Below, piece after piece: positions 60,993-61,085 of a stretch of DNA of 64,000 bases. The notes beneath the pieces were generated by a model. It was not told the origin of the DNA and did no database searches. It saw only the letters and a program-made list of their open reading frames with translations. Source of the DNA: Altererythrobacter sp. BO-6 (lineage in GTDB: Bacteria; Pseudomonadota; Alphaproteobacteria; Sphingomonadales; Sphingomonadaceae); assembly GCF_011047315.1 (NCBI RefSeq), contig NZ_CP049259.1, positions 310,001 through 374,000 on the forward strand, in the 5' to 3' direction. A program made the translations under genes and the position numbers. Each line of letters starts with the position of its first letter. The first letter of the stretch is position 1.

Positions 60993-61046
60993 ATGACGCG
61001 TAACGGATCGCTGCTGCTTCTACGACTTACACGCCCTTGGGCGTGA
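60993..61046 (+). CDS. Candidate leucine leader peptide upstream of leuA
   Basis: A 17-codon reading frame encodes MTRNGSLLLLRLTRPWA. Five of 17 residues are leucine, four in a row, including CTT and CTA codons that are rare in this GC-rich genome. It lies 87 bp before leuA and is followed by alternative RNA stems. This is the classical layout of an amino-acid attenuator. Confidence 0.65.
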   Translation: MTRNGSLLLLRLTRPWA

Positions 61047-61085
61047 CAGATCGCGTGCCCTGACGGCGCGCGGATCGCCCAAGGG
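61030..61085 (+). promoter_or_regulatory. Alternative stems of a leuA attenuator candidate
   Basis: CACGCC/GGCGTG (61030-61035 and 61040-61045) forms one hairpin over the end of the leader peptide. CCCTTGGGCG (61034-61043) is instead a perfect 10-bp complement of CGCCCAAGGG (61076-61085), enclosing GCGTGCC/GGCGCGC (61053-61059 and 61065-61071). The first two pairings are mutually exclusive. No T-rich terminator is visible, so the mechanism may differ from a classical terminator. Confidence 0.55.

Follow-up and report, generated by a model that had tools for sequence, protein, structure and literature searches.

The window, i.e., the whole stretch of 64,000 nucleotides (nt) of Altererythrobacter sp. 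BO-6 DNA that was analyzed, carries a short leader open reading frame (ORF) ahead of leuA, which codes for a 2-isopropylmalate synthase of the yeast/actinobacterial type. The features of the locus, numbered from the first nucleotide of the window, are as follows, the RNA helices being predicted structures:

60958..60986, + strand: putative promoter, TTGCAC (60958-60963), 17-nt spacer, AATTGA (60981-60986), proposed from counts of -35-like boxes
60993..61046, + strand: leader ORF MTRNGSLLLLRLTRPWA, an RL-x-RP ORF found at 110 of 110 leuA loci
60999..61009, + strand: predicted 5' arm of helix P0, CGTAACGGATC (leader codons 3 to 6), from MFE/centroid folds and own-versus-swap tests
61011..61028, + strand: control codons CTG CTG CTT CTA CGA CTT (Leu Leu Leu Leu Arg Leu)
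61029..61046, + strand: local hairpin H1, which competes with P1 and is disfavored
61034..61043, + strand: 5' arm of stem P1, CCCTTGGGCG, at the end of the leader ORF
61051..61073, + strand: predicted hairpin P2 within P1, from folding z scores
61076..61085, + strand: 3' arm of P1, CGCCCAAGGG, the exact reverse complement of 61034-61043
61108..61120, + strand: predicted 3' arm of P0, GATC(AT)CGTTACG, overlapping the Shine-Dalgarno (SD)-like ACGAG of leuA (61118-61122), from the fold and the SD-pairing test
61133..62392, + strand: leuA, first reading frame, with its ATG at 61133

The leader ORF (60993-61046) reads ATG ACG CGT AAC GGA TCG CTG CTG CTT CTA CGA CTT ACA CGC CCT TGG GCG TGA and holds, just as a sequence-only reading of this DNA had described, four successive Leu codons including CTT and CTA. 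We compared it with the leaders of 110 sphingomonad leuA loci (L001 to L030, the best 30 of a genome search; L031 to L110, the best 80 of 594 candidates, from GTDB contigs), a set that is dominated by close relatives and comprises 108 distinct cores. As in leuL-type leaders, a run of Leu codons lies ahead of the leu gene at all 110 loci, the ORF ending 77 to 130 nt before the LeuA match, and because the leader is conserved among these loci a chance origin is excluded. Conservation of the Leu codons in relatives had been set as a check on the original idea, and it was found: the codon just 5' of a fixed CGA (codon -1) specifies Leu at 108 of the 110 loci, by way of four synonymous codons. More specifically, the Arg codon that follows codon -1 is CGA without exception (110/110), and the Leu codon after it is CTT at 104 loci and CTA at 6, with CTG or CTC at none. 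Of the leader Leu codons, 50% are CTT and 14% are CTA, versus 6.5% and 1.2%, respectively, of those in the first 385 codons of leuA at the same loci, where CGA amounts to 1.7% of the Arg codons. Such codon usage, set against that of leuA, indicates that both Leu itself and particular rare codons have been kept. Judged from these comparisons, it is near certain that 60993-61046 is the leucine leader of leuA.

The CGA of the CGA-CTT pair at 61023 to 61028, like that of the relatives, is thus a rare and yet invariant codon followed by CTT/CTA, which raises the question of why an invariant CGA should stand directly before a rare Leu codon. Slow decoding by inosine is one idea. Rarity of CTT is an incomplete explanation by itself, since CGACTTA also occurs at the AT-rich locus L209, where CTT need not be rare, and P0 likewise offers no explanation for CGACTTA.

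At 94 of the 110 loci, one of ten TTGAC-like strings, taken as a -35-like box, begins between 40 and 30 nt 5' of the leader ATG (mode, -36), compared with 10 of 110 for a control window shifted 40 nt upstream. Transcription would be expected to start at the leader ATG or within about 2 nt of it, and the spacing of the box suggests that the leader is probably translated from a leaderless, or nearly leaderless, mRNA. According to the passages of PMC10117765 cited here, the leader ORF of Sinorhizobium meliloti trpL, whose attenuator sRNA is rnTrpL (14-aa peptide), is translated from a leaderless mRNA, which indicates that leaderless leader ORFs are translated in Alphaproteobacteria. The leuA leader resembles trpL, as far as these passages describe it, in being an alphaproteobacterial leader ORF that is predicted to be (nearly) leaderless, and differs from it in the gene concerned, which is a trp gene there.

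The leuA gene of the window undergoes a frame change near 62299-62301; in L031, where leuA is one open frame encoding 559 aa, this site corresponds to residue 389/390. Upstream of the leader, a putative alpha-hydroxy-acid dehydrogenase-like gene (59781-60930) shows a frame change near 60268-60278 and is intact in L031. The change in leuA could be either a real break or an assembly indel, and two broken frames near each other hint at assembly indel errors. Given both changes, the gene under control may be nonfunctional or wrongly sequenced in this assembly.

A 10-bp pairing between 61034-61043 and 61076-61085 had likewise been proposed from the sequence, and the complementarity of the two segments is exact. 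Within the window, the pairs of this stem (P1) have probabilities of 0.71 to 0.99, mostly 0.96 to 0.99. Across the 108 distinct sphingomonad sequences, P1 is paired in 97.7% of cells, a percentage that is inflated because the 3' arm of each locus was chosen as the best complement. Changes on both sides of a pair are the better evidence, and these occur at 6 of the 10 pairs (42 double-changed cells); none of 500 shuffles matched the paired share, the pair count or the double changes (the statistics for P1, and those for P0 below, take no account of phylogeny). Covarying stems in relatives, another check set at the outset, are thereby borne out for P1. In one clade, a change of TGG to TAG, i.e., of a Trp codon to a stop codon, is mirrored by a C-to-T change in the opposite arm. 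We also examined P1 class-wide in an alignment of 120 sequences (A2), consisting of 43 of the 110 yeast-type loci, 19 of 20 E. coli-type sphingomonad loci (one was a duplicate), and 58 of 59 other loci (all except L215). Here, 96.3% of cells are paired, 8 of 10 pairs are doubly changed (reached by 3 of 500 shuffles), and the double-changed cells number 178 (reached by 0 of 500), a count that is raised by seven outliers chosen for changed arms (L005, L048, L062, L066, L077, L098, and L101), which were added to a yeast-type set otherwise made of every third locus with one duplicate dropped. Against mononucleotide shuffles, the inner hairpin P2 folds with a mean z of -1.6, and z is < -1 at 81 of 110 loci. 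We rejected direct masking of the SD by P1 itself, as the stem stops 38 to 83 nt short of the LeuA match at the 110 loci.

Leaders that end in RP-stop (L008, L015, L025, L033, L049, L050, and others) show, by eye, a further GC-rich hairpin between P1 and leuA. At these loci, the leader is about 25 nt longer and an AAGG-containing SD-like stretch lies between P1 and leuA, again by eye.

The strong GC-rich stem-loop formed by P1 and P2 could in principle be the terminator hairpin of a classical intrinsic attenuator, and T runs do follow it directly at a few loci (e.g., TTTTTTTT at L226 and TTTTTCGA at L050). However, only 10 of 189 loci have a T-rich tail, defined as 5 or more T among the 8 nt 3' of P1, no T tract lies 3' of the stem in the window, and the loop and P2 leave the stem unusually open. 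We therefore rejected an intrinsic terminator as the general device and regard this explanation as very improbable; the scarcity of T-rich tails argues against intrinsic termination and thereby favors translational attenuation. The lack of a T tract in the window, which the sequence-only reading had noticed, thus extends to most loci, and its preference for control of translation or Rho access over a standard terminator is supported as far as translation is concerned. One locus stands apart, in that the AT-rich L226 (206-267, minus strand) carries eight T after P1 in a terminator-like arrangement, a possible switch of mechanism.

What did not hold up as the main switch is the proposal that a ribosome stalled at the Leu codons chooses between a local hairpin at the end of the leader ORF (H1) and P1. 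H1 can be drawn from the window sequence and excludes P1, but there it has a probability of just 0.01, compared with 0.71 to 0.99 for the pairs of P1; it is paired in 79.6% of sphingomonad cells versus 97.7% for P1; and by eye it is weak or absent beyond the sphingomonads. Two of its outer pairs are doubly changed in 23 cells with a covariation score of 0.134, and neither the cells nor the score were reached by any of 500 shuffles, although the number of doubly changed pairs (2) was reached by 377 of 500. Because these outer pairs show double changes, H1 may be a kinetic intermediate, and we set aside only its competition with P1 as the principal switch. The same data bear on transcription attenuation of another kind, one without an intrinsic terminator, in which stalling would select H1 or P1 and one of the two states would expose a Rho entry site before leuA. 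Such a mechanism would fit the shortage of T tracts at most loci, the mutual exclusion of H1 and P1, and the covariation of the outer H1 pairs; against it stand the low probability of H1 in the window, its lower paired share and easily matched count of doubly changed pairs, and its weakness or absence outside the sphingomonads. On balance, we consider Rho-dependent attenuation through H1 and P1 unlikely.

The first interpretation was thus right about the leader, its Leu codons, the long-range stem and the missing T tract, and overlooked three features: the P0 helix, the spread of the element through the class, and the invariance of the CGA-CTT/CTA dicodon. As to the first of these, folding of 60990 to 61150 gave -56.7 kcal/mol, only a moderate advantage over shuffles (z, -1.88; 12 of 200 were as good), with 60999-61009 paired with 61108-61120 in the MFE structure and the beginning of the leader base-paired to the region around the leuA start. 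The P0 arm of the window comprises codons 3 to 6, just 5' of the Leu run. With the 5' part of the leader ORF paired to the leuA ribosome-binding region in this manner, leader, P1 and P2 would form one long hairpin that masks the leuA start.

We asked whether leaders pair better with their own leuA 5' untranslated region (UTR) than with those of other loci. Over the 110 loci, the duplex energy was -22.6 for own versus -18.5 for swapped combinations (t = -7.2, n = 110); own-pairing z was < -2 at 35 of the 110 (mononucleotide shuffles), and the core region alone gave t = -3.4. With a fixed 60-nt leader, the preference for own pairing persisted in weaker form: t was -3.8 for the 110 sphingomonad loci, 62 of which beat their own swap mean, and -3.6 for 59 other alphaproteobacterial loci, 37 of which beat the swaps; under dinucleotide shuffles, z fell below -2 at only 18 of 110 and 7 of 59 loci, respectively. 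For loci with a CGAG-type SD (n = 63), at least 6 of 7 bases were paired in the best register in 35 versus 24% of swaps, but in one fixed register the means were nearly equal, at 3.33 (own) versus 3.03 (swap) of 7. Moreover, the wobble base of codon -1 complements a TCGnA partner at 30 of 46 sites, compared with 16.2 expected by permutation, such sites being present at 38 of 107 loci. Outside the yeast-type sphingomonad loci this match gave no clear signal, with 8 of 19 sites complementary in the CGA loci of other alphaproteobacteria and 2 of 4 in E. coli-type sphingomonads.

The exact position of the helix varies, its 5' arm falling on codons that either directly precede the Leu codons or take them in. 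Taken by itself, the Leu-codon core pairs weakly with the 3' side in the TRPWA clade, where the mean z is -0.28 (n = 82), and somewhat better in the RP-stop clade, where it is -0.91 (n = 28). A base stem running from the Leu codons to the SD, similar to that of the actinobacterial LEU element described below, is clear at, e.g., L183, L185, L180, and L209, with z < -2 at 13 of 59 loci. By inspection, the near relatives L002 and L013 are without convincing SD pairing, and the register of P0 differs among clades. Taken together, these sequence comparisons lend good support to P0 as a pairing tendency that shifts its register from clade to clade, and less support to P0 as a single fixed helix.

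We then modeled accessibility of the SD region with a simulated ribosome footprint. In the window, the mean accessibility of 61113-61124 was 0.27 for the free RNA, and it was 0.51 and 0.53 with a ribosome stalled at Leu 7 and Leu 10, respectively, compared with 0.24 at Leu 12 and 0.27 at the stop codon. Over the 110 loci, modeled accessibility was 0.470 (free), 0.553 (stalled), and 0.474 (stop), with stalling producing a gain of >0.1 at 40 loci and a loss of >0.1 at 9. With swapped 3' parts, accessibility went from 0.484 to 0.531, with a gain at 29. The modeled change across the 110 loci is in the right direction and small in size.

Our preferred reading, to which we assign a probability of about 0.6 on the strength of sequence comparison and modeling, is that leuA is under leucine-responsive, ribosome-mediated translational attenuation, and that this control is common in Alphaproteobacteria. 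When leucine is sufficient, the ribosome would reach the stop codon and depart, and P0-P1-P2 would form, masking the SD of leuA together with, in certain folds, its start codon. When charged tRNA-Leu is short, the ribosome would halt on the Leu codons with its footprint over the 5' arm of P0, and the SD would be released. P1-P2 would serve as a clamp joining the leader ORF to the leuA start. Lowered translation of leuA could also open the mRNA to Rho or to decay.

Leucine attenuation through leader peptides is textbook knowledge in enterobacteria, where it operates by transcription termination: in E. coli and Salmonella, ribosome stalling on the Leu-codon leader peptide leuL controls the leu operon by transcription attenuation. 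The alphaproteobacterial leader shares with leuL the Leu-codon leader peptide and the proposed ribosome stalling, and differs from it in its structures and in lacking the T tract of an intrinsic terminator. In the ermC and cat leaders, a ribosome stalled on the leader ORF frees a masked ribosome-binding site. Our model resembles these translational attenuators, in that a stalled leader ribosome would free a masked site, except that the signal would be uncharged tRNA-Leu rather than an antibiotic. If true, a leuA leader that pairs with the start region of its gene and in most cases has no terminator tail would represent the translational counterpart of the enterobacterial system in a large share of Alphaproteobacteria, and it suggests a site of leucine control in organisms without a leuL-like terminator.

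The nearest known structural match, on the basis of description and with only nested structures folded here, is the LEU element of actinobacterial leuA (Seliverstov et al. 2005, PMC1262725). In the cited passages of that paper, the element comprises a Leu-codon leader ORF with no terminator named, a base stem that the Leu run itself forms with the SD of leuA, and, above this stem, a pseudoknot or alternative hairpin. The alphaproteobacterial leader appears similar to the element so described in having a Leu-codon ORF 5' of leuA, a predicted stem between codons and SD, and, at most loci, no terminator; it appears to differ in that P1 is a nested 10-bp stem, the register of P0 varies, and P0 of the window falls on codons 3 to 6. 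The authors cite, in the same passages, evidence that mutations of the Leu codons leave regulation unaffected, and they consider protein binding likelier than attenuation (PMC1262725). By analogy, a trans-acting protein or small RNA might read the invariant CGACTTA/P1 segment of the alphaproteobacterial leader, with the leader ORF being secondary. The presence of CGA at 110 of 110 loci despite its 1.7% share of leuA Arg codons, the recurrence of CGACTTA among distant alphaproteobacteria, and the bound protein proposed for the LEU element (PMC1262725, passages cited) are all in keeping with this alternative. In contrast, the third base of the codon after CGA toggles between T and A (104/6) and the CGA position itself (codon 0) may hold CTN elsewhere, a pattern resembling codon choice, and the Leu at codon -1 survives synonymous changes. 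We accordingly find recognition by a trans-acting factor improbable. Under ribosome-mediated translational attenuation, our preferred reading, the alphaproteobacterial leader would have converged with, or be kin to, the LEU element, whose mechanism was left open by its authors in the passages cited (PMC1262725).

The leader is not confined to yeast-type leuA. Of 199 family genomes, 183 have LeuA homologues, including weak ones, and 159 have the exact pattern CGACTWANNCGCCCYYNGG, among them genomes with a weak LeuA match (28 to 31% identity where listed). All 20 loci read with E. coli-type LeuA downstream, which were selected by a match to the sequence pattern, carry the leader upstream. The yeast-type and E. 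coli-type enzymes are only ~30% identical and have the same leader ahead of both, which suggests that the element persists when the enzyme gene behind it is exchanged. One genome (G052, locus L131) contains both LeuA types, with the leader ahead of the E. coli-type copy; its yeast-type leuA lies ~0.55 Mb off on the same contig. In the wider class, where 96 genomes lie above the curated LeuA cut-off, we read 90 loci from 90 of them and detected, 5' of E. coli-type LeuA, a related leader of the form (CGA or CTN)-CTT-A..GCCCCTGA, the partner of which resembles TTCAGGGG. Of the 90 loci, 50 share 12 or more of the 15 motif bases, and 59 pass a less strict threshold of 10 bases plus a stem run of 6; these 59 are the other alphaproteobacterial loci of the P0 tests.

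A covariance model (R1) matched 77 of 241 class genomes at E ≤ 0.01, once in each, a fraction that, as with those below, is not independent of the training set because R1 was trained on A2, which includes many of the same loci. The match lies 5' of LeuA in 76 of the 77 (30/30, 34/47, and 12 of the remaining 13), the one not placed upstream of LeuA being that of G262 (E, 0.007). The 96 genomes with E. coli-type LeuA above the cut-off account for 56 of the 77; in 3 more, a match near LeuA was found on a separate search, and no R1 match was detected in 37 of the 96. Within the family, 166 of 199 genomes have R1 matches, two each in G018, G066, G076, and G144, and in a sample of the phylum 38 of 199 have them, 37 of these within the class.

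A search of window positions 60900-61200 against Rfam 15 gave no match at E ≤ 5, and the sole matches from 20 of the alphaproteobacterial leaders were two to unrelated families, both below threshold (E, 0.54 and 0.88); hence, we rejected membership in a known Rfam family. An alphaproteobacterial leuA leader is not described among the literature matches listed, and the cited passages of PMC2965389 and PMC8632094 contain no leuA element; an earlier prediction is possible, most likely in the proteobacterial survey of Vitreschak et al. 2004. The strong covariation makes the element a family ready for Rfam. Tentatively, and with confidence a little short of even, we suggest that it is a previously undescribed regulatory RNA, all but restricted to Alphaproteobacteria among the genomes searched, in which the leader ORF is antisense to the leuA ribosome-binding region, so that starved ribosomes would unmask leuA, that it has been kept through replacement of the leuA type, and that CGA-CTT/CTA would be its stall signal.

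Two R1 matches are unusual. The match of G219 (C1:439956-440009) lies 428 nt from the LeuA domain start, where the other 33 measured lie at 54 to 150 nt, and that of G545 (E, 7e-4; 31 nt) is the sole match outside the class in the phylum sample.
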